DNA of 64,000 bases from Hoeflea phototrophica DFL-43. Lineage in GTDB: Bacteria; Pseudomonadota; Alphaproteobacteria; Rhizobiales; Rhizobiaceae. The notes beneath the pieces are model-generated. The model was not told where the DNA came from. It searched no databases and worked only from the letters and a program-made list of their open reading frames with translations. The stretch spans positions 948,461-1,012,460 of the forward strand of contig NZ_CM002917.1 of assembly GCF_000154705.2 (NCBI RefSeq). Direction: 5' to 3'. Both the position numbers and the translations under genes were made by a program. This document shows positions 30,806 to 52,768 of this stretch, one piece after another (position 1 is the stretch's first letter; each line of letters starts with the position of its first letter).

Positions 30806-31153
30806 GGGGACGCCTGTTCCGAAAGCAAATTTTCAATATCACCCAAGTTCTAGCGGCTTATATCCGAAACTCAAATTTCATTGAAAATACCACCAAAAAG
30901 CAAGTTAGTCTGAATCTCAATTTCCTAATTCGTCGGGGCCAAGCGCCGAAATTGGGCGAAGTTTCGGTGCAGCCAGCCACAGTGAGGATCGTAGCCGTTA
31001 TGGCAGATATACTTGCAGCGAAGCTTTTGCAAAATCGGTCTTCCGTGGGAGTTGCCACCCAATGCCCGATTGCTTTTTCAGTGTCACGGACATTAGCATT
31101 CATCTGAGCCAGATGTACATATTTTCAAATGACGGCACTCCTACCATACGAGT
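30806..31153. other. A/T-rich gap with no gene seen
   Basis: About 350 bases between two reverse operons. All frames are broken or non-conserved. It should hold the promoter of the cytidylyltransferase-SDR operon (reading left) and the end of the oxidoreductase gene at 31154. Confidence 0.4.
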
Positions 31154-32191
31154 TCAGGCCCACGGAAAAGTACGTGAACCAAAATCATCCAATGTTTGCA
31201 AGCCAACTGCCACATTTCCGGTCTCGGCTGACTTATAACAGGCGGCGAGTGCGGCCACAACCAGACGTGCATCTTCACCGGTAGGATAATTACGACCTGC
31301 CGCAAGAGCGGCCAGCACTGCTTTGGTCGGCTGCACATTATCGCTTTGTGGAAAGTGTATGGTCTCTCTGTCCCACGGCATGCCGTAGCGTGTCGCAGGC
31401 ATTGCGCGGTGCTCAGGTTTGCGAGTTGTTATTATCGCTTCGCCCTGAAGTTCGTCCACAAATATGTGGCCGTAGGCGCCGGCGTAGGTAACCGTCATGC
31501 CGTGCCCCTGATCTGGACCGATGATTAGATTAAGCCGTTGACCATCTGTCCCCACGATGCGTATCTCGCCGGCTTGGTCGAAAAAATGCGGACCACGCGG
31601 ATTGGGCACGGTAGCGTCGCTGAACCACGCGGTCGCATACTCCGGCTCTGAGCCAGTAAGGTATCTGAATGCTTCGATGTAATGAGAACCGTTCATTGCA
31701 AAACCGAAGCATCCTCCTACGACGGTCATGCTCGCCATCTTCCCGAGGCCCCCGTTTTTTATGGCCTCTTTGACCACCAGATACTGATCCATAAAGCGCA
31801 TCTGGTGATTGATTGCCAGCTTGGTTCCAGATGCCGCGCAGGCGGCGATCATCGATTCACAATCTTTGACGCTTGTTGCCATTGGTTTTTCGCAAAGAAT
31901 AGCGCCGCATTTTGCTTCGGCTGCCAAACAGGTAAAGTTTTTGTGACTTTCAGCTGTTGTTGCGATTGATACTATGTCAACACTACCTAGCCGCTCAAAC
32001 AGCCTACTTGCAGAATCGAAACGCATTTCGTTGGGAACGCCAAACGCGTCCCCAAGTTCGCCGAGCGCATTGAGGTTGGAATCGCAAATGGCCGTCAGTT
32101 CGACTCCCAATTCGCGAAGTGCGGTTGCGTGAGCACGTCCCATGCGTCCAGCTCCAATAAGCGCTGCTGACTTCCATTTAGTCGTCCGCAT
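31154..32191 (-). CDS. Gfo/Idh/MocA-family sugar oxidoreductase
   Basis: 345 residues. The NAD-binding loop is AALIGAGRMGRAHATALREL, followed by the family motif AILCEKPMATSVKDCESM and INHQMRFMDQYLVVKEAI. A C-terminal substrate domain includes MNGSHYIEAFRYLTGSEP. It probably oxidises or reduces a nucleotide sugar or free sugar in the reverse-strand pathway. It is distinct in sequence from the other two Gfo/Idh proteins in this block. The substrate cannot be read from the sequence. Confidence 0.83.
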   Translation of the reverse strand: MRTTKWKSAALIGAGRMGRAHATALRELGVELTAICDSNLNALGELGDAFGVPNEMRFDSASRLFERLGSVDIVSIATTAESHKNFTCLAAEAKCGAILCEKPMATSVKDCESMIAACAASGTKLAINHQMRFMDQYLVVKEAIKNGGLGKMASMTVVGGCFGFAMNGSHYIEAFRYLTGSEPEYATAWFSDATVPNPRGPHFFDQAGEIRIVGTDGQRLNLIIGPDQGHGMTVTYAGAYGHIFVDELQGEAIITTRKPEHRAMPATRYGMPWDRETIHFPQSDNVQPTKAVLAALAAGRNYPTGEDARLVVAALAACYKSAETGNVAVGLQTLDDFGSRTFPWA

Positions 32192-32284
32192 CCAGCCGGT
32201 CCTTTCCGATGAATGTTGTCATGATTTTTCTAGCGTCCCGGAAATGATAGGTTAAGTTGGCATGAAAATCGGAGGGCATGCCAG

Positions 32285-33208
32285 CTACCTCGCCCAAAGC
32301 AGGACTCTACCATTTTCGGAATCTGCTGCGACCACCTGATCCTCGAATGCAAGCGCATCATAGGGTTTCGAAAGCCCCCGCCCTTCTTCCATTGACAGCA
32401 GATTCCCGATATTGTCAAACCACTGCAACCTGTTGTTCCCCCAATCAGTGATCAGTACTGAGCCGTCAGGAGAGACGGAGATGGCGACCGGGCCACAGTA
32501 TTCTCCAGGCTGTCCGCCTGCCGACTTGCCGAAGTAACCAAGCCACTTACCGTCGGAGTTGAACCTTTGAATTCGATGGTTCCAGGTGTCGGCAACGAGA
32601 AGATCGCCACCGGGCACCTCTCGACACATATGAGGACGATCAAAAGCACCCTGTTTTTGGTCTGCCGAGAAGCTGGCGTCGGATAGAAAACCGTCCCTAC
32701 CGCCTCCAAGGCCTCCCAAGAAGCATCCAATAGCAGCCCCACGACCTTCAAATGCCAGAATGCTGTTGCTGGCATACTCTGCCACCAGAAGCCGGCCCCG
32801 GCTGTCCAGGGTAATGGTGGCGGGCCCTTTCAAGTGGCCACGCCCGATTTCGCTACGGGCCGCCCCTGAACGATCGAGAAGAAACAATCTGGGAGTATAG
32901 TAGGTGAGCACTGCAAGCAGACCGCTTTCCAGTTCGCAGACCGAATGCGGGCCGTTGAAGCGGCCCGGCGCAACGGCTGTCTTTTGGGCAAAGGTCTGGT
33001 CGCGCTGAACCGCACCCAAAGAGACCCAATTGTCGTTTGAACCGCCAAGCCATTCGATTTGCCCAAGATTGTTGGAAAAACGAAACACGCCATGAAGATT
33101 CATGTCAGTTACCAGCAGGCGGCCCGAACTGTCCTTCAGCAATCCAAATGGGCGACCGAAGCCAGTCAGGCATAGCATGCCATTTTCCTCATGCAGGCCG
33201 ATCTGCAC
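32285..33208 (-). CDS. NHL-repeat beta-propeller protein
   Basis: 307 residues made of repeated blades: GRPFGLLKDSSGRLLVTD, KGPATITLDSRGRLLVAEY, DRPHMCREVPGGDLLVAD, TWNHRIQRFNSDGKWLGYFG and CGPVAISVSPDGSVLITD. No signal peptide or membrane segment is seen, so it is probably cytoplasmic. It starts three bases after the upstream oxidoreductase stop and is clearly part of the operon. NHL propellers bind ligands or act as lactonases and lyases; none is a standard polysaccharide enzyme, so its task here is open. Confidence 0.82.
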   Translation of the reverse strand: MQIGLHEENGMLCLTGFGRPFGLLKDSSGRLLVTDMNLHGVFRFSNNLGQIEWLGGSNDNWVSLGAVQRDQTFAQKTAVAPGRFNGPHSVCELESGLLAVLTYYTPRLFLLDRSGAARSEIGRGHLKGPATITLDSRGRLLVAEYASNSILAFEGRGAAIGCFLGGLGGGRDGFLSDASFSADQKQGAFDRPHMCREVPGGDLLVADTWNHRIQRFNSDGKWLGYFGKSAGGQPGEYCGPVAISVSPDGSVLITDWGNNRLQWFDNIGNLLSMEEGRGLSKPYDALAFEDQVVAADSENGRVLLWAR

Positions 33209-33211
33209 AGC

Positions 33212-34159
33212 TTATACGCCAAACATCTGGTGGATCATCCGCATCGTACGCAGGCTTTCGTTGATATCGATCGCGTTGCTCGGTTTGCCGCATACTGCAT
33301 CCAGCACCGCCTGCGCCTGACTGACGAAGCCAGCCTTGAAATCGATATCCCGGGCTTCAGGCTCGACCTGTGTCTGCGCGCGACTGTTGCGGTTCTGAAA
33401 TGTCGCTCGCTCAAGCGGTTGCATCGTCCAACGACGGCTTGGCGTGCTGACGGCGCATGCCCAAGGGCCAGGGCCTTTCCAGATGCCCTCGTAAAGCGCC
33501 GTATCACCGCTGTCAAACCTGATATGCACTAGAACGACTTCCGTTTCCTCCCCTTTCCAGGGCATGATAGGCAAAACTTCGACCGGTTCGCCGCGGCACA
33601 GGGCCATGATCAGGTCGATGTTATGGATCGAATTCGCATACATGAACTTCTCAACCACCTTTTCCGGATGGTTATAGCGCCGAGCCTCTTCATAGCTTTG
33701 CTGATCCTGAACATGGACATAGCGGAGCTCCGTCGGGCGGCTCTCCAGATCGGCGCGAACCGCCTGGGTGCTGGAATAGAACCGGCGATTGAACCCCACA
33801 AGAACCGGCTTCGATCGTCCCCGAGCAGCAGCGGCTATATCTTCCGCGTCGGCCAGATCATACCCTGCCGGCTTTTCCAACAAGACCGCCCAATCGCGAG
33901 CGAAGCACTGTTTCGCCACGGCGTTCGCGGACAATTCGGGGACTGTGACTATCACGAGATCAGCCCCGCTTTGCTCACGAAGCTGCGGGATGCTGTCGCA
34001 GATATGAGCAATGCCGAATTCCTCAGCTAGTTTCTGAGCCCGCTCGGTCGTGCGGCTATGGATGCCCGTAATTTCCACGCCGTCCAGCGATTGGAAAGCC
34101 CTGATATGTTCACGCGCCATGTTCCCGGCGCCAACTATTGCAATTCCTGTCATACCCAT
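33212..34159 (-). CDS. Gfo/Idh/MocA-family oxidoreductase
   Basis: About 315 residues from the ATG at 34159 (MGMTGIAIVGAGNMAREHIR); an earlier in-frame start would add four residues. The family lysine is in WAVLLEKPAGYDLADAED and the substrate domain includes FMYANSIHNIDLIMALCRG, where His is the likely catalytic residue. It lies in the reverse operon between a transferase-like gene and the NHL protein. The start GAG-M-A pattern also resembles the decayed fragment at 49512-49620. Confidence 0.83.
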   Translation of the reverse strand: MGMTGIAIVGAGNMAREHIRAFQSLDGVEITGIHSRTTERAQKLAEEFGIAHICDSIPQLREQSGADLVIVTVPELSANAVAKQCFARDWAVLLEKPAGYDLADAEDIAAAARGRSKPVLVGFNRRFYSSTQAVRADLESRPTELRYVHVQDQQSYEEARRYNHPEKVVEKFMYANSIHNIDLIMALCRGEPVEVLPIMPWKGEETEVVLVHIRFDSGDTALYEGIWKGPGPWACAVSTPSRRWTMQPLERATFQNRNSRAQTQVEPEARDIDFKAGFVSQAQAVLDAVCGKPSNAIDINESLRTMRMIHQMFGV

Positions 34160-34181
34160 TGTCACTCTCATGTATCCAAAT

Positions 34182-35645
34182 TCAAGCCGAACGACGCGAA
34201 ACCGGTTTCTCAGATCGCAACTCTTCGATCAGCCCCACTATCCGTTCGACCGAACGGCCATCGAGCCGCCCCCAGTCTTCGCAAATTTCTGCCTGCTTGC
34301 GCTTCAGCAATGCAAAATCCTCCTGATGCGGGACCAATCTGCGCAAGGCATCATCGAATTCCTTCAAGGAATTTGCATGAACGACCCCTTCAAATCCCTT
34401 GTAATCGTCATAGTTAAATTGAAAAACATCATAGTTGACGACTGGAACGCCACAAGCAATCGCCCAGCGAATGGTTGCGGAGGCGAAGGCAACTATGGCG
34501 TCAGACAGTGCAATTAGGCGCGCCGTATCCACTGTGGTCTTTCTGAAACCGGCTTCTTCGAGCAAGTCGCCCATTTTGAGGAAGTTGGGGTGAGGTCGCA
34601 CTACGATTTCGTAGTGCACTTTCAGTGGTTGAAGCGCCTCGGCGATATGCTTGCACATGTCCGCCATATCCTCGTACTCAAACCCGCCGGGATGGTGGCC
34701 GCTGGACTGATCAGGGCAACCCACGATTGTTAAGACCGGCTTGCCCTCAGCCAAGCCCAACTCTTGTCGCAGGTTGGCGAGTTCAGCTTCTTTGTTCAGG
34801 CGATATTTGGCAAGATAGTCATCATATACGGCACCGACCAGACGCAGTTTGGAATCTGGCAAGCCAGCGTCCCTATAGTAATCCAGCATCGCCCGGTTTT
34901 CGACCGCTATGGCATTGGCAAATCCGCTGTTCATCATCCATGGGTCAGGCGGTGTCGTGCCCGTGAACTCATGTCCCAATAAGTGGGGACCGGGTAGACG
35001 GACGAGAGAAATGCCGTCCCGTTCCATAACCCATCGAGGATAAAGCAACGAAATCACCCAGTTTGCCGGATGTGTCCGCTGGTACGCTGGTTGAGCGCTC
35101 AGGCTGCGAAACGCCTCCTCCTGATTCGCGATCGTGTAAGGCAATATCAAGCTTGGTATTCCCAGCCGATGCGCCGCTTTGATGATCTGCGGTGAAACTA
35201 TGCCCACAACATCTTCCGGCAAAATTATCAAATCAGGATTAATGCCCTTGATTTTTTTTTCATAGATACGGCACATTCGCGTATACCTAACAATATTTAC
35301 AATGCCACCTAAGATTTCATGGATAAGAACAATGTATTTAACAAATCTTGGACCCAGTCTAGATTTTCTATCTCTAGACTTTTTTGACGGTGTCTTCTCC
35401 ATTATATGAAAGAAATCAAAGATCTCAAATCGCTCCAATTTTTCATCTTGTTCAGCCTGTTTGCCATCCTGGAGAACCAATGCTTCGGATGCAGAATTAG
35501 GGCCTTCGCAAGGATGATACATGATTTGAATCGTGTAGTCGCATAGATGAAGCGCATCTGCACCACGACGCATTTCTACATAGTCCGACGGCCGCTGCGC
35601 GACGAGGAGGATTTTCCCTTTGCTCACAATAGAATTCTCTCCCAA
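34182..35645 (-). CDS. GT-B-like capsule/O-antigen transferase candidate
   Basis: 487 residues. The C-terminal half resembles CDP-glycerol/polysialyltransferase-type GT-B proteins: EIVVRPHPNFLKMGDLLE, LSDAIVAFASATIRWAIACG and VPVVNYDVFQFNYDDYKGF. The N-terminal half has a charged region and IILPEDVVGIVSPQIIKAA, which suits the acceptor domain. A run of nine T at 35252-35260 is crossed in frame. It is a paralogue of the protein at 39302-40711 (shared SxxIRWA and NYD motifs). A CMP-nonulosonate donor is possible but unproven. Confidence 0.6.
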   Translation of the reverse strand: MGENSIVSKGKILLVAQRPSDYVEMRRGADALHLCDYTIQIMYHPCEGPNSASEALVLQDGKQAEQDEKLERFEIFDFFHIMEKTPSKKSRDRKSRLGPRFVKYIVLIHEILGGIVNIVRYTRMCRIYEKKIKGINPDLIILPEDVVGIVSPQIIKAAHRLGIPSLILPYTIANQEEAFRSLSAQPAYQRTHPANWVISLLYPRWVMERDGISLVRLPGPHLLGHEFTGTTPPDPWMMNSGFANAIAVENRAMLDYYRDAGLPDSKLRLVGAVYDDYLAKYRLNKEAELANLRQELGLAEGKPVLTIVGCPDQSSGHHPGGFEYEDMADMCKHIAEALQPLKVHYEIVVRPHPNFLKMGDLLEEAGFRKTTVDTARLIALSDAIVAFASATIRWAIACGVPVVNYDVFQFNYDDYKGFEGVVHANSLKEFDDALRRLVPHQEDFALLKRKQAEICEDWGRLDGRSVERIVGLIEELRSEKPVSRRSA

Positions 35646-35945
35646 GATGGCTCATCCAACCGATGTATTTTGATTACAGGGTCGAGTCTGATTACAACGC
35701 GAATACCTTCAACGCATTTGGACACATTCATGGCAAAACCTTCAAGTGTTCCACCTTGGTGCACGGAGGGGTTTCCGAGATCTGTAAGGTTCTCATTTGC
35801 TCGCTTTTGAGCGTAGATTTGGGCAGGCAAAACAACCTTACACGTTCATTAACTGGTGGCCAGGCCAACCAACTGTCTTTGATTAGAGCCAGCGGTTCCC
35901 GGCTGCAGTCGAGCAAATGAAATCGTCGTTTGGCCTCTGCATACA
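35646..35945. other. Gap between two transferase-like genes
   Basis: 300 bases with no convincing coding frame on either strand. It could hold a promoter for the gene ending at 34182. Confidence 0.35.
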
Positions 35946-37067
35946 TCAGCATGACGTATGGCCCTGGAGCACACGCTCTAACACCTTTCCTGGGGCCGCA
36001 ATTGGACTGTGCAGGCGTTGCGCCGCCTGCCAGTATCGCAGCTTGGTCTGAGGCTGCGCCGCGCTGCGGAGACTTTCGGCGAGGTCGCCCACCTTCTTGA
36101 CCTCTTCGACCAGACCAGCCTTGAGATACGGAAACTCGCTGAGCCTAACCATCTTGCGGAAATAAGCGATGATTTCCTCATCGAAAAACAAGGAGAGCGG
36201 AGTGATAAGGGGTTGCCCGGAGAAGTAGTTGAGATAGGCCACATCGTAGGTACAGTTGGAAAAAGCGCTACACACCACGTCGCAACCCAGTAATGCGTGC
36301 TCGACGTCCTTTTCCTCGGACATGCGGACATCGAGCCCCATTTCCCGAAGGGTGTTGCAGGTCCACTGACAGTCATCGTCGCTTTCTCTCGGGTGCGGTC
36401 GATAGACCGGAATGCAGGACGAACCAAATTGATTGACGGCGCTTGCCCATTCCCGGACGGTTCGCCGATACCCGTCCAGATGGTGGAGTCCCTGGCCAAA
36501 AAAGCCAATCACCGTCTGGCCGTCGTCGGCGCCCAACCTCGCACGAGTGAAGATGCGCTCTCGTTGCAGGTCCAGCTTTCTATATGCCGAATGGCGCGGC
36601 GAACCTACAATTTCCGCCTCCAAGCCGTGACGTTCCCGGCTCAGGCGTACCCCCTCTTCGTCGAGCGACAGGTAGATGTCCGCAGGACGTCCCAGGATGA
36701 GATTGGCCTCGCCCCAGAAATCCTGCATGACGAAACTCGGCCCCTTGAAGCTGGCAAGGATGGCCTCGTCTATGCCGGCATCAAAGGGAGTAGATAGTCC
36801 GCAAAGAATGCTGTCGGGCTGGAATTTGGACAGCAAACGATCAGCTTCCGCCAGAAGGGCCTTCGCCTCCTCGGTGTCTGCATGCTTGCCGGCGGGAAGA
36901 TCGATAGTCGTAACCGGGATATCCGCTGATTGAAAAAATTTAGCCGCCGGAAATTGGGTCACAATCTCAAGAACAAGATCATCCCTTGCCCGAGCAACCT
37001 TGGCCACTTCGATCAGATGCAGGGCAGCGGCGGCGTCTCGCGCTGTAATCAGAAGGCGTTTTTTCAC
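35946..37067 (-). CDS. GT-B-like protein of unknown specificity
   Basis: 373 residues. The start reads MKKRLLITARDAAAALHLIE. Features include PSFVMQDFWGEANLILG, GSPRHSAYRKLDLQ and IGFFGQGLHHLDGYRRTV, then PVYRPHPRESDDDCQW, a pattern like the RPHP motif of polysialyltransferase-type or CDP-glycerol-type GT-B enzymes, and LGCDVVCSAFSNCTYDVAYL. It follows the kinase gene in the reverse operon. It may transfer the sugar made by this block. No catalytic assignment is possible. Confidence 0.5.
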   Translation of the reverse strand: MKKRLLITARDAAAALHLIEVAKVARARDDLVLEIVTQFPAAKFFQSADIPVTTIDLPAGKHADTEEAKALLAEADRLLSKFQPDSILCGLSTPFDAGIDEAILASFKGPSFVMQDFWGEANLILGRPADIYLSLDEEGVRLSRERHGLEAEIVGSPRHSAYRKLDLQRERIFTRARLGADDGQTVIGFFGQGLHHLDGYRRTVREWASAVNQFGSSCIPVYRPHPRESDDDCQWTCNTLREMGLDVRMSEEKDVEHALLGCDVVCSAFSNCTYDVAYLNYFSGQPLITPLSLFFDEEIIAYFRKMVRLSEFPYLKAGLVEEVKKVGDLAESLRSAAQPQTKLRYWQAAQRLHSPIAAPGKVLERVLQGHTSC

Positions 37068-37136
37068 AGATGCTCGATTTCTCCAGAGGATTTCCGGCGA
37101 AAACAGATCGCCTTCACCGCTCTATGCTCTTTGCTT

Positions 37137-38273
37137 CTACGCAATTCCGGACGCAAAGCCGGCTCCCGCTTCTGCTGGAATTGCTCTAGTCATGCGTTCA
37201 ATCAGATGTCCCTTATCTGTCGCCAATTGCTCGAGATAAAAAAACTTCTCCCATTCTCCGGTTTCGACCCGGATACCGCTTTCTTCTCCCAATGCGAGAG
37301 TACAAAGAGACCGAAGTGCCAGGGACCGAAGAACGGATGTCCATTCCTGTCCAGACAGTGGCGCCACGTCAACGAAACTCCCCCCGCTTCGTGAATACTC
37401 GAACATAAAGGCTTGGCCAAGATCTATCGCAAGCTGTTCTTCCCCTACCCTTACCAGGACCAATCTTTCTAGGACCAGCGCCAGATCAAAAGCAATCGGC
37501 AAGACACTGTGGAAGACGTCCTCGAAGTCCATCAAGACGGCCTTGTCCCCAGCGATGAGGATATTGCCCGGGTTCAGGTCGCCATGCAGCGGACGCCGTG
37601 GAAGCGCATCAAACCGGAAGTCAAGCGATCGGTCTGCGGCGAGTTCGGACAGACGGTCCGCATATTGGGGCCTGGCGCCCTGTTTTTTAACCAGGCGCTC
37701 ACGAACAGCGTTGAGTTCGCTCAACCTGTCATCGGTGAAGTCACGCCAGGAACCAAGGTCCGGATGCCGGACAAGATTGTGGTGAAACGCACCGAGAGCC
37801 TTCCCGAGCGCGCGCATGTCGGAGATTGATGCTTCTACCCGCCGCCCGCTCATGAAGGGAAGCAATATCGCGACGTCGCCCTCCGGCGTCTCACGCGGAA
37901 AACCAGGCAACGGGGCGGGAAGATCTAGCCCCTGCTCCGCCAACCACGCAGCAACGCCTTCTGCACGCAAGACGCCTTCCTGCCGTTCGACATCGATAAG
38001 CTTCAGCAGAAAGGACTGACCTGCCGTCGTATCCACGCGATACATATGGCTTGGGGCGTCGCCAAACAGGAGAGCAGCGACCCGCGAGATCTGCGCGGGC
38101 TCCAGGCCAATCATCCCAAGTATATGCGTCGCACTCTGCTCATCCAGAACGTCCGCGCGCGGAAGCGCAGGTGTCAGTCCGCTCCAGGACGGACTTCTAA
38201 CGAGCGTCGCACTTTGCGTCCGACCAGCGGATTGGCGTCCCGGCTTGGATCGAGGCCGTAATTTTCCATCCAT
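37137..38273 (-). CDS. Aminoglycoside-phosphotransferase-fold sugar kinase
   Basis: Up to 378 residues; the 5' part overlaps the NeuB-like gene by 77 bases, so a later start (down to 38117) is likely. The fold shows MYRVDTTAGQSFLLKLID (ATP lysine), the catalytic loop RRPLHGDLNPGNILIAGD and the metal site VLMDFEDVFHSVLP. Members phosphorylate small molecules such as sugars, choline or antibiotics. Its place next to an atypical NeuB-like synthase suggests it phosphorylates the sugar substrate or product of that pathway. Resistance is unlikely from context. Confidence 0.78.
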   Translation of the reverse strand: MDGKLRPRSKPGRQSAGRTQSATLVRSPSWSGLTPALPRADVLDEQSATHILGMIGLEPAQISRVAALLFGDAPSHMYRVDTTAGQSFLLKLIDVERQEGVLRAEGVAAWLAEQGLDLPAPLPGFPRETPEGDVAILLPFMSGRRVEASISDMRALGKALGAFHHNLVRHPDLGSWRDFTDDRLSELNAVRERLVKKQGARPQYADRLSELAADRSLDFRFDALPRRPLHGDLNPGNILIAGDKAVLMDFEDVFHSVLPIAFDLALVLERLVLVRVGEEQLAIDLGQAFMFEYSRSGGSFVDVAPLSGQEWTSVLRSLALRSLCTLALGEESGIRVETGEWEKFFYLEQLATDKGHLIERMTRAIPAEAGAGFASGIA

Positions 38274-39282
38274 CTACCAAATCCCACTGTTCGACCGGAA
38301 TGCCGCGGCAAGGAAAGGCGAACCGCACGGTATCAAGGCCGATTGTGTCACCGGGAACGAGGTCCCTTTTAGCGACCAGGCACTGACGTTGGGAGGTGCC
38401 GATCACACCGTCGATCTTCATGTTCGCATCGCGAACAGGCTTGCCCAACGCCTGCCAGCAGTTATAGACGGTCCGCAAAACCTCAGGCAAGCTATCCATG
38501 CTGAATGTATGCGAAATGTCGATGTCGAGATCATCGGGCGCAACGTGAACACCCTTCTCCAACACCGTCGCACCGAGGGCAACGGACAGATAGAGCATCT
38601 CAACACCCACATGGTGATCGGATATGCTGGACGGCAGGCTGAAGACATTATTGTAGGTCTGCAGGATCCGTAGATTGTGGGCCTTTGGCAAGGCCGGGTG
38701 TCCGTCAGGGCTGTGTTGCAGGACGATATCCACGCAGCCCGCCGCGCGCGCAACCGCCACCGCCCGATGAACCTCTGCAATATTGGAACGCCCGGTATCC
38801 AGCAGCAGTGGAATACCCTTGCTCGCGCAATGGCGGATCAGCGGCACATGGACAAGATTGCCGGAGGCGATCTTGAGCGCAGCAGCTCCAGACTGCACCG
38901 CGAAATCGGCACCTGCAAAGTCATATACCGAAACGATGAACGGGGTGTTTTCCGCCCTGCACAGTCCAAACAGCTTGGCGTAATGTTCGAGCGGGAATAC
39001 CTTGCGCTCGATCAGAGCACGATAATTCTCCTGTTGAACCCTTCCATCCTTGGAGGAATAGGTCTCAAGCGTATCGCCCGGTAGACAGATTTCCGCATCG
39101 TGCAGAATTTCGGTCTTGAGGATGAGCGGTTGATGCGGCACCTCGCGGCCAGCAGCGATAATGCGAAGAATCATCGCTCGCGCCAGATTGTAGTCCTGTC
39201 CGAAAAAGCCACCGATCTCTGCCAGGAAGACCGGGGGATTCTCGTGGGAAAGTTCAAAAGGACCCAAATGAAAACGTCGCAT
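38197..39282 (-). CDS. Divergent NeuB-family synthase with C-terminal SAF domain
   Basis: About 361 residues from the ATG at 39282. The TIM-barrel architecture and C-terminal SAF-like domain (VAKRDLVPGDTIGLDTVRF) fit NeuB/LegI/SpsE. Conserved motifs are changed: LAEIGGFFG for AEIGVNHNG, DTGRSNIAEV for STGMATLEE, SDHHVGV for SDHT-GI, and LEKGVHVAPDDLDID where IEKH-TLD is normal. The KIASGN motif remains. NeuB enzymes condense PEP with a hexosamine-type sugar using two metal-ligand histidines. The first is kept (SDH) but the second has shifted, so a different aldehyde acceptor or chemistry is probable. The true LegI-like enzyme is at 51740. Confidence 0.75.
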   Translation of the reverse strand: MRRFHLGPFELSHENPPVFLAEIGGFFGQDYNLARAMILRIIAAGREVPHQPLILKTEILHDAEICLPGDTLETYSSKDGRVQQENYRALIERKVFPLEHYAKLFGLCRAENTPFIVSVYDFAGADFAVQSGAAALKIASGNLVHVPLIRHCASKGIPLLLDTGRSNIAEVHRAVAVARAAGCVDIVLQHSPDGHPALPKAHNLRILQTYNNVFSLPSSISDHHVGVEMLYLSVALGATVLEKGVHVAPDDLDIDISHTFSMDSLPEVLRTVYNCWQALGKPVRDANMKIDGVIGTSQRQCLVAKRDLVPGDTIGLDTVRFAFPCRGIPVEQWDLVDGWKITASIQAGTPIRWSDAKCDAR

Positions 39283-39301
39283 GAATACTCCTGTATTCGG
39301 T

Positions 39302-40711
39302 TCAGTGCCCACCAATGTGCTTTTCCATCAGTTGGTCTATTTCTGCCAGAATTCGTTCGTTGCACTTTCCGTCAAGGAAGCCCCAGTTCGGAGCGTCGGC
39401 CGCCTGCGCGCCGGCCAGACGCGCGAACTCCGCTTCGTTCGCCACCAGCTCTGCAAGCCTTGTTTTCAACTGCGCACTCTCCGCCGTGGTCCAAAAGCCT
39501 GGTGCAGAGCTGTAATTGTCCAGGCCAATTCGATAGGCATCGTAGTTCAGCACGACTTTTCCTGCGCCCAGTGCCCAGCGGATACTGCTCGAAAAATAGG
39601 TAATGAAGATATCGTTGCAGGGAAGGAGCCTGATCACATCGTCCGCAGATGTGCTGATACCAATACCATTCAGCAACTCGTGGACTTTTGCATCGGCTGC
39701 GGGATGAACCGAAACCGTAAGGTCGCAATCCCGCAATGTGCTGACAAAGTCCAGAATATCGACCGTCATTTCCTCATAGGTCGAAAATTCGTTTCTGCCC
39801 GGGAAGATCGAATGATAGCTTGGCGGCCAGGAAACCAGCACTCTGGGCCGGCCAGACACAATGTAGCGGGATTTGAGGAAGGCGCTGGAAGCCTGGCTGT
39901 CCTCGGCCAGCCCCTCCAACATACAATCACTATAGGGAGAGCCGGTCAGAGAAATTTTCTCCCGCGGGATTCCCTCTTCGAGATACTGCTGCAAAGCCAA
40001 GGAATTTTCTGCACAAAGCCTGTCGGACGCTCCTCCGTGCACGATCCAGGGGTCTCTGATCGATATTCCCAGCAATTCCTGTTTCAGAATATATGACTGG
40101 GGAAACATAAGCTGCCCTGCATGCTTGCCGGTCTTGAGCCACTGAGGGGCGAACTTACTTAAGAGCCAACCTTTTACGCCCTCGGTCGTGATGCAATTCC
40201 CCTCGGACACCTTTCGCTCGATATCGATATCAAAATCCTGGCGTGTCGCGTTGCCATAAGGCACATCCACAACTGGAATGCCCATACGTTTCGCCGCATT
40301 CAAAACAAACTGGGAGGTCGAGACGCCGTCCTCGGACACAACGAGCGCGCAGGGGGAAACAGAGTCCAGCAGCATGAAGCTGTCAAGGGAAAGCCCGACC
40401 TGAGGCCAGCGCCCGTTCACCCACCTGTTGAATGGAAACGCGCTCAGTAAGCGGGTTATCAGTGGGACACCTGTTGTCCTGAAGGATTTCAGGTTTTTCC
40501 AGCTACCGGAGAACTGTTCGGTGGCGATGCACTCGATATTCAAGCAAGCCGCTTCGGACTTGATTTCCTGAAATACCGGATTCTCGGGACCGTTAAATAG
40601 GACGACGACCTTTCGTCCCTGATGAAGGCAATACTTCAACAGATACCGTTGCAGCCGGAAGCTTCCGATGTTTCCAACAAAAAAAGCGAGTGGCCGGCCT
40701 CGACTATCCAT
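39302..40711 (-). CDS. GT-B-like transferase candidate, paralogue of 34182-35645
   Basis: About 469 residues from the ATG at 40711 (MDSRGRPLAFFVGNIGSF), chosen because it lies ten bases after the methyltransferase stop; an upstream in-frame start would overlap by 41 bases. Motifs include LTVSVHPAADAKVHELLN, CNDIFITYFSSSIRWALGAG and VVLNYDAYRIGLDNYSSA, shared in spacing with the 34182 protein. It resembles capsule or teichoic-type transferases. It follows a methyltransferase and CMP-sugar synthetase in the same transcript, and a CMP-sugar donor is plausible. Confidence 0.6.
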   Translation of the reverse strand: MDSRGRPLAFFVGNIGSFRLQRYLLKYCLHQGRKVVVLFNGPENPVFQEIKSEAACLNIECIATEQFSGSWKNLKSFRTTGVPLITRLLSAFPFNRWVNGRWPQVGLSLDSFMLLDSVSPCALVVSEDGVSTSQFVLNAAKRMGIPVVDVPYGNATRQDFDIDIERKVSEGNCITTEGVKGWLLSKFAPQWLKTGKHAGQLMFPQSYILKQELLGISIRDPWIVHGGASDRLCAENSLALQQYLEEGIPREKISLTGSPYSDCMLEGLAEDSQASSAFLKSRYIVSGRPRVLVSWPPSYHSIFPGRNEFSTYEEMTVDILDFVSTLRDCDLTVSVHPAADAKVHELLNGIGISTSADDVIRLLPCNDIFITYFSSSIRWALGAGKVVLNYDAYRIGLDNYSSAPGFWTTAESAQLKTRLAELVANEAEFARLAGAQAADAPNWGFLDGKCNERILAEIDQLMEKHIGGH

Positions 40712-40721
40712 GATGGCCAGA

Positions 40722-41444
40722 TCAGTCCTTGACCTTGCAAACCATGAAGTAATGGTCGACAAGAAGCTTCAGTCCATTGGTGAGCTGGCGTTCGCGTTTT
40801 TCCGTCGCCATCGTCCAGGTTCGAATTGGATCGGCGCTTGGCGGCAAATCGATTGGCAATTCAAAGCGCTCCAGCACAAGATCAATGCCGCGGGCCTGAA
40901 GGATCTCACGGATGGTATCCTGAGAGAAAATGTTCCAGCCGCTTTCCCAATCTCCTGCCGCGCCGTTGGGTCTCTTGCGATGCCTGATCATGGCATCGAC
41001 ACCGAACTCGTTTAGCGGTGAAAGGACCAGAATAAGCCCACCCGGCCTGACTGCACCGAGCAGATTGTCCCAGAACGCTTCAATCTGTGTCTCGTCAAAG
41101 ATCGACATGCAGCCAATGGCACAGACGATATCAAAATCCTTGAGCTCGCTCGGGAGCGCCAAGGCAGAAGCATTGACGAACTCAGCCTGCGGCAGCAGCC
41201 TGCGCCCCTCTTCCAGAAGATCTTCAGTCACATCAACGCCGACAAAATGAGCCTCCGGCATGCATTTCGAGAGAAAGCCAACGAACTCGCCGGTAGCACA
41301 TCCCACGTCCAGAACCTTTGCAACGTCCTTGTCGATTGACGAAGAGATGATGTTCCAGGCGGCCTTGAAACTCTCTTTTGGCTCCCGACTCCAGCCTTCC
41401 TTGATGTAATGGCCATGATTGCTGTATTTTGCGGAAGTCGTCAT
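40722..41444 (-). CDS. Class I SAM-dependent methyltransferase
   Basis: 240 residues. The Rossmann motif is AKVLDVGCATGEFVGFLS, followed by FVGVDVTEDLLEEGRRLL, FDIVCAIGCMSIFDETQI and RPGGLILVLSPLNEFGVD. It overlaps the preceding cytidylyltransferase gene by ATGA, so it is translated with it. Methylation of the CMP-linked sugar or of the finished glycan is likely; N- and O-methyl groups are common on legionaminate derivatives. The target is unknown. Confidence 0.83.
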   Translation of the reverse strand: MTTSAKYSNHGHYIKEGWSREPKESFKAAWNIISSSIDKDVAKVLDVGCATGEFVGFLSKCMPEAHFVGVDVTEDLLEEGRRLLPQAEFVNASALALPSELKDFDIVCAIGCMSIFDETQIEAFWDNLLGAVRPGGLILVLSPLNEFGVDAMIRHRKRPNGAAGDWESGWNIFSQDTIREILQARGIDLVLERFELPIDLPPSADPIRTWTMATEKRERQLTNGLKLLVDHYFMVCKVKD

Positions 41445-42154
41445 CTCTTATCCACGCCTCTCAGCTTCAGCAGGTTCTCGGCCAACTGCAGATCCAACTC
41501 GTCATCTATATCGATACTGTCACGCCGGTCCATTTCATAGGCACCACACGGTTTTCTGTAAAATCGTCCGTTCGTCATGAAATTATCGGCTTCAACGACG
41601 TAAACCGCGCCATTCTGCCGATAAACCGCCTGCATGTCCTGACGACGCGCCTCCATGTCCCAGTCGTTCGTGAAAGGCTCGATCCTTCCATCCCTGATAT
41701 AAACGCATTTTCCGGGATGCACATCGACCTCACACACGGAGAGGACCGTTTCGACGCCCCCCTGCCTGAAAAGGGCGACGCAGGCGTCGATGTCCCGAGC
41801 CCGGCGAAGAGGTGACGTCGGCTGGAGGAGTACGGCGATATCGCGGACATGAGCCGGAACGCGGACTGTTTCCAGGGCATGACGGAAGACCGCGTCGTTC
41901 TGGGCCGTATCCGTGGCAAGTTCCGGGGGGCGCTGTACGACCTGCGCACCATGGGCCTCCGCGACGTCGGCGATCTCGGCATCCTCGGTCGACACGATCA
42001 CGAGATCGACCAGCTCGGCTTCCTGTGCGGCGCGGATCGAATGGACGACGAGAGGGATGCCGCCCAGCATTCTCAGGTTTTTTCGGAGCAATCCCTTTGA
42101 GCCGCCGCGTGCGGGTATGACCGCAATGACTCTGGCCGCTGACGCGTTGCTCAT
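41441..42154 (-). CDS. Acylneuraminate cytidylyltransferase family, copy 2
   Basis: 237 residues. Motifs are VIAVIPARGGSKGLLRKNLR, VIVSTEDAEIADVAEAHGA, VLLQPTSPLRRARDID and the metal-binding DSIDIDDELDLQLAENLL. It overlaps both neighbours by ATGA (flippase upstream, methyltransferase downstream). In this operon with the divergent NeuB-like gene it probably activates that gene's product. It is clearly distinct from the copies at 30080 and 48643. Confidence 0.87.
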   Translation of the reverse strand: MSNASAARVIAVIPARGGSKGLLRKNLRMLGGIPLVVHSIRAAQEAELVDLVIVSTEDAEIADVAEAHGAQVVQRPPELATDTAQNDAVFRHALETVRVPAHVRDIAVLLQPTSPLRRARDIDACVALFRQGGVETVLSVCEVDVHPGKCVYIRDGRIEPFTNDWDMEARRQDMQAVYRQNGAVYVVEADNFMTNGRFYRKPCGAYEMDRRDSIDIDDELDLQLAENLLKLRGVDKR

Positions 42155-44004
42155 GACGGCAACTTATCGAGGCGGGACAGATCTACAAGTTGCTTGAACG
42201 AGGGGCACCGACTTTCCAGTGTCTCAAAGGACGCCATGTCAATCACCTCGCCCTTCTCCATCATGATGACCTGATCACATTCCCGCAGAGTGCTCAACCT
42301 GTGTGCAATGATGATGATCGTACGCGACCCGCGAAGTCGCATCAGGCTGTCGGTAAACGCCTTTTCAATCGCTGCGTCCAATGCCGATGTTGCCTCGTCG
42401 AGAACAAGCACCTCCGGATCAGCGTAGAGCGCCCTGGCAATTCCAAGGCGCTGCCTCTGTCCGCCAGACAAACGGTTGCCATCCTCGCCGACAAATTCAT
42501 GCATGCCGTTGGGAAGCGATTGCACGAAATCCCACAACTGAACGACCTCAAGCGTGGAACGAATACGTCCTTCGTCTAGCTCTTCCGCTCCTGCTGCAAA
42601 TGCCACGTTGCGGGCTATGCTGTCTTCGATCAAGAAGACGCTTTGCGGCACGTAACCAATATGTCGATGCCAGGCGCGCAATGCTTCCTGTGAATTGAGC
42701 ATATCGCCGTCCACCTTGATGGAGCCACATTGGGGCCGCAACAGACCCATCATCAATGTCACCAGCGTACTCTTGCCCGACCCAGAGGTCCCCGTAATGC
42801 CGATAATGCCATTGCGCGGAATTTCCACCGATACGTTTCTGACCGCTGGCGCGTTCCCGGTTGGGTAAGAATAACTAACTCCCTCAAGTCGCAGTTGGTG
42901 CTTGAAACTCAGGGCTTTGGGTTCGACAGTGGGTTGATAAACCTTTCCCTCTTGGTCCGACAACTCCTTGGCGACAATTTCAACCGAGTTTTTGCTCAGA
43001 TTCATCATCTGCAAGCCGGTCAGGATGCGATTGACAAGGGGTGCTACGCGGAACAGCGTGGCCGCCATCACGCCCAAGATTGCGAAACCGACCGGTTGAC
43101 TACCCGACAATATCAAAATGTATCCAACAAGCGAGAGAATTGCTAAAATCACTGCACCCTCTATTGCAAGAGGTGGGAAGCTGGACAAGAAGTTGTAATG
43201 TGCCTGACGATTGAAGTTTCGGCCTTCTACTGTCTTGAAGCTTTCCAGAAAAAAGCTTTCGCGCGCGAGAAGCTTTGTTTCTTTAATCATACCGATTGAT
43301 TGACGTAGGATGGACTGACGACGTTGGAAGATTGAGTTCATTTCCCTGCCAATATCCTCAAATCGACGACGCATAAAATAGTAAATCATCACAGCTATAA
43401 CAAAAATTGCAATCAATCCGTAGATGCTTTCCCCAGGAAGGAAGGCAAACAAGAGCAGACCAAGGGCTGTTAGCATTATGCCGTTTGTGGTCAAACTAAT
43501 TATTGCGGTTATGTATTGATCAAACACGGCTGCCGTTAAGGATATGTTGCGAATGATTTCCGAGCTGGATTTAGATAGATGCAATTCAAAATCTGAAAAT
43601 ATATAAACCCTCATCAAACGATAGCTAAGCTCGGTTTTCCACTGAGCCAACAATGAATATTGCAAGCGATTGAAGATTAGCATGTAGGCATTTTTGGCAA
43701 CCATAATCCCGCCAATTAAAGCAATCAGAAAAATGGATGTACTTGTTCCAGCGTCAATACCTAAGGTGCCTGTTAACCAAACAAGAAACTGAAAACGTTC
43801 TATCTGGTGCGGCTCGACAATCAGAATCAACAGCGGGAACACAAGGCCCAAGCCTGTCATCTCGATAATAGCTGCAAACAAGCTTAATGTCAGAAGTCCA
43901 GCTACCTTGAACCGTCGAGGCCAGAGCTGATCCTTGATGAAGGACAAGCCTTCTGGGCTCAATGAATTTGAAAGCAAGCGCTTCACCAGAAAACCCAAGT
44001 CCAA
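42151..44004 (-). CDS. ABC transporter, PglK/MsbA-like flippase
   Basis: 617 residues in one polypeptide: a six-helix transmembrane domain (residues about 1-330) and an ATPase domain with ITGTSGSGKSTLVTLM (Walker A), the signature NRLSGGQRQRLGIARALY, VLVLDEATSALDA (Walker B) and the IIIIAHRLSTLRECDQV H-loop. Such half-transporters homodimerise and flip lipid-linked glycans (PglK), lipid A (MsbA) or peptides. The sugar operon suggests a lipid-linked oligosaccharide, so the window holds a second export route besides Wzx. Confidence 0.9.
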   Translation of the reverse strand: MDLGFLVKRLLSNSLSPEGLSFIKDQLWPRRFKVAGLLTLSLFAAIIEMTGLGLVFPLLILIVEPHQIERFQFLVWLTGTLGIDAGTSTSIFLIALIGGIMVAKNAYMLIFNRLQYSLLAQWKTELSYRLMRVYIFSDFELHLSKSSSEIIRNISLTAAVFDQYITAIISLTTNGIMLTALGLLLFAFLPGESIYGLIAIFVIAVMIYYFMRRRFEDIGREMNSIFQRRQSILRQSIGMIKETKLLARESFFLESFKTVEGRNFNRQAHYNFLSSFPPLAIEGAVILAILSLVGYILILSGSQPVGFAILGVMAATLFRVAPLVNRILTGLQMMNLSKNSVEIVAKELSDQEGKVYQPTVEPKALSFKHQLRLEGVSYSYPTGNAPAVRNVSVEIPRNGIIGITGTSGSGKSTLVTLMMGLLRPQCGSIKVDGDMLNSQEALRAWHRHIGYVPQSVFLIEDSIARNVAFAAGAEELDEGRIRSTLEVVQLWDFVQSLPNGMHEFVGEDGNRLSGGQRQRLGIARALYADPEVLVLDEATSALDAAIEKAFTDSLMRLRGSRTIIIIAHRLSTLRECDQVIMMEKGEVIDMASFETLESRCPSFKQLVDLSRLDKLPS

Positions 44005-44057
44005 TACCTCACTAACCGAATTCGTAGTTTTCTATCTGGCGCCTGAAGCTCCTCGTA

Positions 44058-45380
44058 TCAGTCGTCAAGACCGTCATAAACTGTCCTGCGTAATTTCCAT
44101 TTGTTGCCCTCAATCTTCCAAAGGTGAGGCGATCGGAAACTATCAGTCAATCGCTCGAAATAGACCCTATCCATAATGGGCTGCTCGAAAATCTTCGAAG
44201 CGACCGGAAATTGAGTTTCTGGGAGCGAGAGATATTCGAAATTTTCCTTCTCGAACCGGGTGGAATACTCGCCATCAAAGCGACGAATGAGACGAATCGC
44301 CTCATCGCGATCAAGTTCGCCATTACGGACTTCTTGCGAAGAATCGTAGGTAGCGCGACCTATGCCAAATTTAATAAAGGTCGTATAGTAATGAAGATCA
44401 TCGATCTTGTCGTCTATCGAGCTGTACTTGCTGTAAGTACCTGCAGTGCGCTCCGGCGCAGCCTGAAATCCGCCATGCTCTACCGAATAATAGTAGCATT
44501 CTTGCGGGTGCCAAGGCAAATAGTAGCCCAGATAGTGTACGTCAATGTTCGCGGCCTTCAGGTCTTCGGGGTTCGGTGGCATGTATGGTGCCAGATCATG
44601 ATCAGTTAGGCCGAAACTCTCTCGCAGATCTAAAATTGGCGTCCCTGCCAGGTGGATGGCAGATTTGTCCTGCGAGGTAAAATAGTCCCAGTCCTTCGTG
44701 GCCTTGCTGTCCGCGGCAGCGGCATTTCCGTATTCGGTTGGATTTTCACCGTAGAACACCAATGGAATATTCAGCTGAGCTGCAATTTTCGGCGGGAAAT
44801 ACATCTGTCCCATAATGAATGGTTGAAAGGGGTGAAACATCTGCTCAAGCGCCAAGCGAGTCAGCAGTCGATGCACTCGTCCATTCGGTGTAAATAGGTA
44901 GTTGTCAAATCCGGCATGAATCCAAGCTTGGAAGTTGCGCCACCCCCAGTCCGTGTAAATATGCGGGGACCATGTCACGGTTAAAGGGTTCATCCCATAC
45001 TCGTACTTCAGCTTGTGGGCCGCATAAAAACTATCTTTGCCACCCGACCCTGGCACAATGCAGTCATAACCACCATCGGTACGACGATAACGGTCGCACA
45101 GTTCCCGCAACTGCTGCTGCCGCTCTGCCCAATCGATAGCAGCTTTTTTTTCCGCGACGCGGCACGCAGAACATACGCCCTGTTCATCGAAAGCGACTGT
45201 TGGCTTTTTCGATTGCCGAGTATGTTTGTATTCTTTATCCGAATTCGGCTTCTGGTTGCTGTAACCGCAATTTGCACAGAAGATTATGTCCTGAGGAAGC
45301 CCGTAGTAGGCTTCCGGATCCGCTAGATCAGGACTATAATTTCTTTGGTCCACTAGGGCCGGATATCCAACCATTTTCAT
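44058..45380 (-). CDS. N-acetyl sugar amidotransferase, orphan copy (long WbpG/PseA family)
   Basis: About 440 residues from the ATG at 45380. Two zinc-type cysteine pairs (CANCGYSN and CSACR) lead into the ATP-pyrophosphatase loop CIVPGSGGKDSFYAAH. Further conserved blocks are NPLTVTWSPHIYTDWGWR and HYYTTFIKFGIGRATYD. It is closely related along its length to the protein at 52859-54187. These enzymes use ammonia from a HisH glutaminase, passed through a HisF-like partner, to convert an acetamido group to acetamidino. No HisF or HisH lies next to it, so it must borrow partners or act otherwise. Confidence 0.88.
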   Translation of the reverse strand: MKMVGYPALVDQRNYSPDLADPEAYYGLPQDIIFCANCGYSNQKPNSDKEYKHTRQSKKPTVAFDEQGVCSACRVAEKKAAIDWAERQQQLRELCDRYRRTDGGYDCIVPGSGGKDSFYAAHKLKYEYGMNPLTVTWSPHIYTDWGWRNFQAWIHAGFDNYLFTPNGRVHRLLTRLALEQMFHPFQPFIMGQMYFPPKIAAQLNIPLVFYGENPTEYGNAAAADSKATKDWDYFTSQDKSAIHLAGTPILDLRESFGLTDHDLAPYMPPNPEDLKAANIDVHYLGYYLPWHPQECYYYSVEHGGFQAAPERTAGTYSKYSSIDDKIDDLHYYTTFIKFGIGRATYDSSQEVRNGELDRDEAIRLIRRFDGEYSTRFEKENFEYLSLPETQFPVASKIFEQPIMDRVYFERLTDSFRSPHLWKIEGNKWKLRRTVYDGLDD

Positions 45381-45982
45381 CGAAAACTCCAAAATCTTGG
45401 TACTGTGCAGCAGGACTTCCCTCCGCACGGAACGTCACCATATAGGCGGCGAAATGGATCATTGGTCAGTGTCATTCAACGCCTGGCCCGCATACGACCC
45501 CCTAAATACGTTGGCACTTTCCTAGAAGCGTCTAGGCGCAGCGTGAAGCTGATACGAACACCTGAACGCAGAGTCAATGCCGATGGATGTTTACAGAGAC
45601 CTCGAAACAAGGGTTATGGGAGGCCTGAGATTTCTTATGCTGATCCAATTAAAAAGCGCATATCCGTCAGCATGTAATATACCGTACAAGAATGCGTGGT
45701 ATGGAGATCGGCACGTCCCAGGCCGAGCCGATCTGGGCCGAGTTCCTTCGCAAGCTGACCAGGCGAGGCCTGCGCAGCGAGAATCTTGCTGTCTCCGATG
45801 CACAAGTGGGCATCAAGGCTGCGTTTGACGTAGGACCCGGTTTTGGACCACCCGGCTGGGGGATTTTCCAGGGGGCATACGACTGCCAAATCCGATTTCG
45901 ATGAGCTTCCATTGACCGCAAGCCTTCATTGGCGGAGCCATAGTGTATTTTGGGTTTCGCGTCATGTACGCCGATCACGTAG
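45381..45982. other. Gap containing an IS256 fragment
   Basis: About 600 bases between the orphan amidotransferase and the SGNH gene. Apart from the transposase fragment at 45692-45826 no gene is seen. It divides the reverse-strand block into two transcription groups. Confidence 0.5.
45692..45826 (+). pseudogene. IS256-family transposase fragment
   Basis: The frame reads EIGTSQAEPIWAEFLRKL and TRRGLRSENLAVSDAQVG, matching the second-Asp region of IS256 transposases (compare VGPSEAETFWMDFLRSL and LVISDAHSGLKGAI in the complete copy at 18658-19863). Only about 45 residues are recognisable and both ends are lost. It is a relic of an older insertion, not a copy of the complete element. Confidence 0.65.
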
Positions 45983-46909: not shown

Positions 46910-46910
46910 A

Positions 46911-49356: not shown

Positions 49357-49845
49357 ATCCTATTCCTCGTAGGCTATGGCGAATCACTCCTGTATGTATC
49401 AATCGGACGCAGAATGCGAGACATACGATTGACACGCGGGGTAGGCTACTTTAGGCGGGACCCCCAGACATACCCAGTTTTTACCGAGAGTATTGCTATG
49501 AAGGAACGACGATATGTCGAATAGTTTTCACCGGCGCTGGCGAGATGATAGCACAATACGTCGAGGCGCTTGAATGGATCGCGGGTGTTGAGTTCACTGC
49601 GGTGTGTCGCTGCTGGAAAAGGCGGCCGATTGAATTTACCATATTTGAGGATGTGCGAAAACGTGATCTCAATGAGGTGGCTGTCCTTGATACCAGTCAG
49701 GAATACAAACCCGAATTCGGAACTCCAGCGGACCGGATTCTCTTTGTCTGTCAGGCAAGGGAACCCGCTAGAGTAGCCACAAATAGAGCACTCACGTGCA
49801 CGGATTTAGTTGCCCATACCTACTGTATTGCCGATCGTTGAGGCC
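49357..49845. other. Divergent intergenic region with a Gfo/Idh remnant
   Basis: About 490 bases between divergent copy 3 of the cytidylyltransferase and legG. Promoters for both should be here. A decayed oxidoreductase N-terminus occupies 49512-49620. Confidence 0.5.
49512..49620 (+). pseudogene. Fragment of a Gfo/Idh-type oxidoreductase
   Basis: Forward translation gives RIVFTGAGEMIAQYVEAL and WIAGVEFTAV, matching the NAD-binding N-terminus of Gfo/Idh proteins (compare IAIVGAGNMAREHIRAF at 34159). No start codon lies in frame; an ATG at 49498 is in another frame and soon stops. The continuation to 49841 is open but unlike the family. Confidence 0.45.
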
Positions 49846-51030: not shown

Positions 51031-51040
51031 TTGCCAGACC

Positions 51041-51739: not shown

Positions 51740-52768
51740 ATGAGCTCGAACAGATGCTTTGTCATCGCCGAAATCGGAGTCAACCACAACGGCGACATGG
51801 ACATCGCCCGGCGGCTCATAGATGTTGCTGCGGATGCTGGGGCGGATGCCGCCAAGTTTCAAACGTTCCGCGCCGACGATCTGATCGTTGAGGGAACACA
51901 GGCGGTTGCCTATCAGAAAAAGAATGATGCTGATCTGGACCAGTACAAGCTTCTCAAAGCTCTGGAACTCAGCTTCGAGGACCACGAAGAATTGGTGGCC
52001 CATTGCGCGGCTCGCGGGATCGAGTTCATGTCGACCGGGTTTGACAAGGGCTCCCTGCAACTGCTCCTCGATCTCGGGATCAAGCGGATCAAGATTGCTT
52101 CGGGTGAGATCACCAACACGCCGCTGGTTGAAGCCTCCTCGGAAGCATGCCTGCCGATAGTATTGTCAACCGGCATGGCCACCCTTGAGGAGGTTGCTGA
52201 ATGTGTGCGTACGATCAGGACCGTCTGGGACAGGCTCAATCATGATGGTGACCTGATCGTGCTGCATTGCACATCCGCCTACCCAACGCCGCTTGAAGAG
52301 GTGAATTTGGCTGCGATGGGGACGATGGCCAGCGAGCTCGGTGAAGCCGTCGGCTATTCGGATCACACCACCGGCATCTTGGTTGCGCCAATGGCGGTCG
52401 CGGCCGGTGCGCAGCTGATCGAGAAGCACATCACCCTTGATCGCACCATGCAAGGGCCCGATCATGCAGCTTCCCTGGAACCGGATGAACTCAAGGCCAT
52501 GGTCGACGACATCCGCCGCGCCGAGCTCATTCGGGGTGACGGCGTCAAGACACCGCGGCCGGTCGAGATGGAAGCCCGGTCGCTGGTCAGAAAAGGCCTG
52601 AAATTCTTGCGCGATCTGCCTCGAGGCCATGTTGTCACGATCGATGATCTGGTACCGCTAAGGCCGGAAACAGGATTGCCGCCGGCCCGCCTCAGAGGGC
52701 TGGTCGGCCAGTCGCTTGCGCGGGACGTTGTTGCCTTCTCGCCGGTGGAAGACGCGGATATAGATTGA
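51740..52768 (+). CDS. legI: N-acetylneuraminate/legionaminate synthase
   Basis: 342 residues; GGAGGG precedes the ATG. Canonical NeuB motifs are intact: FVIAEIGVNHNGDMDIARRL, DAAKFQTFRADDL, MSTGFDKGSLQLL, KIASGEITNTPLVEA, LSTGMATLEEV, HCTSAYPTPLEEVNL, GYSDHTTGI and IEKHITLDRTMQGPDHAASL. The C-terminal SAF domain is present (LRDLPRGHVVTIDDLVPL). It condenses PEP with the LegG product to make the nonulosonic acid. Legionaminate is inferred from the upstream genes rather than from the enzyme. Confidence 0.92.
   Translation: MSSNRCFVIAEIGVNHNGDMDIARRLIDVAADAGADAAKFQTFRADDLIVEGTQAVAYQKKNDADLDQYKLLKALELSFEDHEELVAHCAARGIEFMSTGFDKGSLQLLLDLGIKRIKIASGEITNTPLVEASSEACLPIVLSTGMATLEEVAECVRTIRTVWDRLNHDGDLIVLHCTSAYPTPLEEVNLAAMGTMASELGEAVGYSDHTTGILVAPMAVAAGAQLIEKHITLDRTMQGPDHAASLEPDELKAMVDDIRRAELIRGDGVKTPRPVEMEARSLVRKGLKFLRDLPRGHVVTIDDLVPLRPETGLPPARLRGLVGQSLARDVVAFSPVEDADID

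Follow-up and report, generated by a model that had tools for sequence, protein, structure and literature searches.

A NeuB-family synthase of Hoeflea phototrophica DFL-43 with a rewritten active site shared by relatives in six other genomes

A 64,000-nucleotide stretch of Hoeflea phototrophica DFL-43 (assembly GCF_000154705.2, contig NZ_CM002917.1, positions 948,461 to 1,012,460 of the forward strand; hereafter the window) carries a gene for a NeuB-family synthase in which hallmark active-site residues of canonical NeuB are replaced. We use the working name NeuB* for this enzyme (38197..39282, minus strand) and EKG clade for NeuB* together with its relatives, seven members in all, of which six come from other genomes. 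Judging from its sequence, NeuB* probably makes a different, still undescribed acidic sugar, because the losses of hallmark residues are common to the relatives and a kinase gene of its own lies alongside. The NeuB family is known, while the EKG subfamily and its residue pattern are apparently undescribed: as far as we searched the open-access literature, no description of the clade was recognised.

The open reading frame (ORF) of NeuB* runs from an ATG at 39282 to a stop at 38197 and encodes 361 amino acids in the window translation; an in-frame TTG lies upstream at 39315. Residue n starts at position 39282-3(n-1), which locates the residues of interest (F26-F27, D162, H223, G244, D253, D255 and F323). 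Superfamily membership is clear from Pfam, with the NeuB domain (PF03102) at 128.8 bits over a cut-off of 22.1 and the SAF domain at 44.9 bits over a cut-off of 21, and the predicted structure has the NeuB fold, a triosephosphate isomerase (TIM) barrel joined to SAF. NeuB* stays under the cut-offs of the NCBIfam models for sialic acid synthase NeuB (TIGR03569; 125.2 bits, cut-off 399.65) and pseudaminic acid synthase PseI (TIGR03586; 132.3 bits, cut-off 340.25). The former cut-off is strict, since the canonical NeuB of the window (51740..52768, plus strand), which is identified by Pfam and NCBIfam matches and lies beside NeuC and NeuD, itself scores 391.4 bits; the two window proteins are 22% identical. 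A sequence-only reading of the window had set NeuB* against this canonical gene as its intact comparator, rightly so. The altered motifs that it quoted (AEIGGFFG, LLDTGRS and LEKGVHVAPDDLDID) all occur in the NeuB* translation, as do the features it described as retained, namely KIASGN and SISDHH with the first metal histidine, together with a SAF domain over its cut-off. The observation is real, and stronger than it had been stated.

To place these changes, 78 NeuB rows were aligned and 11 of them set aside because they were duplicates or fragments or came from second genes of EKG loci (the canonical rows set aside from loci L043 and L044 retain EKH). Six EKG, four EKT and 57 canonical sequences were compared, with the seventh EKG member, G1077, read separately. 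Positions follow NeuB* numbering, and equivalents in Neisseria meningitidis NeuB (NmNeuB), taken from alignments, are given in brackets; the roles of NmNeuB H236, S154, S132, E134 and D247 are presumed ones. Position 244 (H236, the second metal histidine) is Gly in all seven EKG members and His in 57/57 canonical rows, and position 162 (S154) is likewise Asp in 7/7 and Ser in 57/57. At position 323 (R314, the SAF arginine) the clade has Phe in six members and Trp in one, against Arg in 54 of the 57 canonical rows. Aromatic residues occupy positions 26-27 (N29-H30) throughout the clade (Phe, once Tyr at 26), where 56 of the 57 canonical rows have Asn and His and the remaining row a gap. Tyr at position 195 (Y186), present in every canonical row, is absent from all seven members, and an extra acid stands at position 253 (six Asp, one Glu), where 56/57 canonical rows have Gly. 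The His that follows EKG in NeuB* (EKGVH) occurs in 3/7 members only and is therefore no conserved replacement ligand.

Much of the catalytic framework is retained. K56 (K53), K137 (K129), H223 (H215), E242 (E234), K243 and D255 (D247) are invariant in all seven members, and S140 (S132) is present in six. The lysine on the side of phosphoenolpyruvate (PEP), K129, is thus kept 7/7. The marks of canonical synthases of neuraminic, legionaminic and pseudaminic acid (Neu, Leg and Pse) are a pair of metal histidines, of which the first is found in 7/7 members and the second in 0/7, and the SAF arginine, found in 0/7. The change from R314 to F323 was absent from the sequence-only reading, and this loss may matter more than that of the histidine. 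Judged by their distribution, the changed motifs are not drift, because they are common to six relatives in other genomes and the clade has a support of 100/100. This conservation, and the scores below cut-off against both matched NCBIfam models, uphold the rewritten active site; the second metal ligand is lost in the alignment, and no characterised subfamily was found that claims NeuB*. The accompanying idea that the enzyme condenses PEP with a different sugar is consistent with the arginine loss and may be regarded as a plausible hypothesis.

The relatives are few and scattered. A scan of named genomes gave an Asaia bogorensis metagenome-assembled genome (L003, 65% identity) and Thalassospira tepidiphila (L004, 67%); G086 (41%), G156 (36%) and G589 (41%) each come from another genus, as does G1077, which was held out of the search profile yet matched at E 2.1e-123. 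The EKG pattern was found in at least 3 of 297 genomes of an order sample, at least 4 of 397 of a second order sample, at least 2 of 385 of a class sample and at least 1 of 398 of a phylum sample (counted over the 30 loci that were read, with 85 matching genomes listed); one of 81 genomes from the same family had a member. The window's own genome is counted in the order, class, phylum and same-family samples, the samples overlap and their counts are not additive, and members may be missed in the big searches, in which the best 5-6 candidates per genome were scored. One genome of the same genus gave no match at E 1e-70, and a scan of viral contigs gave no NeuB* relative. In the families of G156 (1/5 genomes) and G086 (1/2) and the order of G589 (1/4), the positive genome was each time the one already known. 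This rare and scattered occurrence of the gene is what horizontal transfer would produce. In the tree, six EKG members (without G1077) fall on one side of the branch with support 100/100 and the EKT rows on a separate branch (100/97); the deeper order is unsure because long branches were flagged, among them two EKG rows and the canonical NeuB of the window. Locus L003 also contains, at 5596-6024, between a surface-carbohydrate gene and the kinase gene, an N-terminal fragment of another EKG-type NeuB (AEVGGFFGQD), apparently a broken duplicate.

Published work bears on what the lost residues do in characterised enzymes. In NmNeuB, R314 of the SAF domain positions the N-acetyl group of N-acetylmannosamine, and R314A is inactive while R314K is active (PMC6795526). 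The Caulobacter crescentus NeuB, a pseudaminic acid synthase, is inactive as R322A and as E30A, and its H245A form, altered in one of the two Mn-binding histidines, shows some function when induced, far under wild type (PMC7591256). From the numbering offsets (E30/E25, R322/R314) we infer that C. crescentus H245 corresponds to NmNeuB H236; the passage of PMC7591256 names the two histidines without NmNeuB numbers, and a list of 13 residues in that of PMC6795526 has H215 and R314, not H236. By analogy, loss of the histidine alone need not inactivate NeuB*, because H245A retains some function. Loss of the arginine would be expected to leave NeuB* inactive on the ordinary substrates, unless its part had been taken over by some other feature, because R314A and R322A are inactive, yet three of the 57 canonical rows lack this Arg as well. 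The region around PEP and the sugar C1 is conserved among Neu, Leg and Pse synthases (PMC7371886), and by alignment NeuB* departs from all three near it.

In overall build NeuB* is like N. meningitidis NeuB/SiaC (1xuu, 2wqp), with a TIM barrel, a SAF domain and equivalents of K53, K129, S132, S213, H215, E234 and D247. It differs in having Gly for H236, Asp for S154, Phe for R314, Asp for N184, His for Y186 and, in a badly predicted stretch that makes the assignment uncertain, Ser for F288. Campylobacter jejuni PseI (8h2c) retains both EKH and the RP arginine, which NeuB* lacks. The nearest fold outside the NeuB family, that of 3-deoxy-D-manno-octulosonate 8-phosphate (KDO8P) synthases, offers a precedent for the loss of a metal site. 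Non-metallo KDO8P synthases, whose substrate is arabinose-5-phosphate, have Asn for the metal Cys and bind no metal. Metal and non-metal forms both exist in that family, and the replaced ligand there is Cys (PMC3052366), whereas in NeuB* it is His; unlike NeuB*, KDO8P synthase has no SAF domain (PMC6795526), and the two are 11% identical.

A second divergent group, the EKT clade (L022, L049, L053 and L069; G400, G687, G764 and G846), for which no characterised member was found, shares with the EKG clade the loss of the second metal histidine (Thr in EKT) and the Asp at 162. Unlike the EKG clade, it keeps the SAF arginine (4/4), has Glu at 255 (D247), forms a separate clade in the tree and has an APH kinase within 10 kb in 0/4 loci. 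A WbuX-like gene is present in three of the four EKT loci L078-L081; an EKH-type NeuB shares the locus in 3/4, the one in L078 lacking the SAF arginine in the alignment. Another odd NeuB relative, L102 (G156:C188:48960-49649), has the motifs KLNASD, ADHTDS, EKHI and YRHP, and its best PDB match is SpsE.

The kinase gene beside NeuB* (37137..38273, minus strand) encodes an APH-type kinase (PF01636, 66.8 bits, cut-off 23.2) with intact HGDLNPGN and DFE motifs, and there is an overlap between its longest ORF and the end of NeuB*. In 7/7 EKG loci a gene for an APH kinase lies at most 4 kb from the NeuB* gene, against 1/20 control loci that have one within 10 kb. The control search covered 24 genomes, four EKG and 20 controls (16 canonical, 4 EKT), hand-picked from hit lists and read at one NeuB place each, with some contigs shorter than 10 kb around the gene (6,988 bases in G764); the single control match, in G022 (E 7.4e-7, 761-aa frame), is weak and was still counted. 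For L003, L004 and L090, the kinases come from Pfam matches on locus ORFs, outside this search.

We give about an even chance to the reading that NeuB* is an active PEP-dependent ulosonate synthase for another acceptor, whose product would differ from that of the canonical NeuB in the same cell. Its basis is observed: the predicted fold, the retained equivalents of K129, H215, E234 and D247, the loss of those of H236, S154 and R314, and the kinase linkage. NeuB* would join PEP to an open-chain aldose to yield an acidic 2-keto-3-deoxy sugar. Since the arginine placing the N-acetyl group is gone, its acceptor would be other than the N-acetyl sugars used by Neu, Leg and Pse synthases. The metal site may be rebuilt on H223, D255 and the new acid at 253, or NeuB* may do without a metal, like the non-metallo KDO8P synthases. 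The kinase could phosphorylate the acceptor before condensation or the product after it, and a synthetase of cytidine monophosphate (CMP) sugars would activate the product, which would then be placed on a surface glycan. The candidate for this activation is a PseF-like cytidylyltransferase (41441..42154, minus strand; 147.7 bits, under the cut-off of 205.7) with a homologue in 7/7 EKG loci. More tentatively, the EKG clade as a whole might be a separate branch of PEP-dependent ulosonate synthases that lacks both the canonical metal site and the arginine reading the N-acetyl group and works with a dedicated kinase to turn a non-acetamido or phosphorylated aldose into an undescribed class of CMP-activated ulosonic acids.

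Several observations weigh against an active synthase of this kind. Position 142 (E134) is Asn in six EKG members and Tyr in one, and E22 (E25) is Glu in four of the seven and Asp in three. We take the side chain of NmNeuB S154 to meet the PEP phosphate, and an Asp in its place is odd if that contact still exists. In an ordinary NeuB the histidine substitution costs activity, since C. crescentus H245A is much poorer than wild type even at a higher protein level (PMC7591256). The kinase evolves fast (nonsynonymous substitution rate, dN, 0.74-0.83), and the L044 kinase is a distant one, lying about 2 kb away. As to a phosphatase, a HAD hydrolase of L090 has a relative in 0/6 other loci (phmmer, one query), which weakens the version with a phosphorylated acceptor. 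Finally, the canonical NeuB in all five EKG genomes searched whole makes an auxiliary role of NeuB* possible.

The canonical route in these cells frames the alternatives. In the window, NeuC (49810-51030; 455.7 bits, cut-off 235.9), NeuD (50915-51739; 174.8 bits, cut-off 160.8) and the N-acetyl sugar amidotransferase WbuX (44058..45428, minus strand; 365.8 bits, cut-off 203.2) accompany a LegC-like aminotransferase that remains under its cut-off (396.3 bits, cut-off 420). Canonical NeuB and WbuX were each present at least once in 5/5 EKG genomes searched whole (G000, G086, G156, G589 and G1077), and in these five NeuB* is therefore an addition to the ordinary pathway, not a replacement. Its place among nonulosonate genes would suit an enzyme that makes a known nonulosonate (of legionaminic, pseudaminic or neuraminic type) through an active site that is unusual yet equivalent. 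So would the activity that remains in C. crescentus H245A (PMC7591256) and the Gly at 141, which NeuB* has in common with Neu and Leg enzymes in place of the Phe of Pse enzymes, position 132 of PMC7371886 being taken as 141 of NeuB*. Yet position 141 is Ser, Ala or Asn in other EKG members, and each of the five genomes already has a canonical NeuB. The SAF arginine, whose substitution by Ala inactivates two canonical enzymes, is gone in 7/7, though 3/57 canonical rows do without it, and the S154 and H236 equivalents are changed, whereas the three known isozymes share a conserved PEP/C1 region (PMC7371886). We consider a known product improbable.

The canonical NeuB in 5/5 genomes would also fit an inactive or regulatory paralogue that partners or regulates canonical NeuB without catalysing anything itself, for example in mixed dimers; the SAF domain is swapped in NeuB dimers, so such a paralogue could contribute its own. 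This is unlikely in our view: K137, H223, E242, K243 and D255 are invariant across a very deep clade, which is unexpected for a dead enzyme, and NeuB* has only 22% identity with its window paralogue. In G1077, moreover, the NeuB* operon and the canonical gene lie on different contigs (of about 300), and that operon comes with a cytidylyltransferase, a kinase and a GT-B protein of its own. The least probable of the explanations weighed here is another reaction on the same fold, without PEP or without a sugar aldehyde. The Asp for S154, common to the EKT clade (4/4), and the altered stretch 182-186 (HSPDGHP) lie near the PEP location of NmNeuB, whose positions 182 and 184 are named near PEP (PMC7371886), and both speak for it; but NeuB* keeps the equivalents of two residues that lie at PEP in NmNeuB (PMC7371886), K129 and, as Ser, T110, and a cytidylyltransferase homologue stands in each of the seven loci.

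Further genes surround NeuB* on the same strand. A GT-B-fold protein (35946..37067) has its nearest fold among UDP-N-acetylglucosamine 2-epimerases and a homologue near NeuB* in 6/7 loci; at the limits used, its sequence matched nothing in Pfam, NCBIfam or PDB. It may be a sugar-releasing epimerase or hydrolase, or a transferase. A surface-carbohydrate protein with an HP motif (34182..35645) matches TIGR04326 and NF046086 under their cut-offs, and a related one lies upstream of NeuB* (39302..40762), with homologues also in L003 and L043. Next to it are an S-adenosylmethionine (SAM) methyltransferase (40722..41444; PF13649), with strong homologues in L003 and L004 and a weak one in L044, and, beyond the cytidylyltransferase, an ATP-binding cassette (ABC) exporter identified by Pfam (42151..44004). 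The window holds three PseF-like cytidylyltransferases in all (30080-30805, 41441-42154 and 48643-49356), each under the PseF cut-off, which suggests that several CMP-activated sugars may be made.

An NHL-repeat protein (32285-33208) sits between two Gfo/Idh oxidoreductases in the sugar cluster and has a homologue in L004. Radical SAM/SPASM proteins occur close to divergent NeuB genes in the EKG clade (L003:3182-4225) as well as the EKT clade (L079:1383-2336), and asparagine-synthase-type amidotransferases in surface-sugar regions of NeuB* (L003:16839-18779, L004:18765-20765). G+C content is 51-56% per 4-kb block at 28001-48000 and 57-61% in 10 of the 11 other window blocks. Mobile genes of the window comprise an rve integrase core (4450-5265), a resolvase/recombinase (16912-18657) and a Mutator-family transposase (18658-19914).

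Prediction of the nonulosonic acids on bacterial surfaces now relies on the NeuB sequence together with known pathway genes. A clade in which the conserved catalytic pattern is broken on a kept scaffold would be filed as ordinary NeuB-family, and its product missed. The EKG clade also offers a natural test of the roles of the metal and of the SAF arginine, parallel to the split between metal and non-metal KDO8P synthases.
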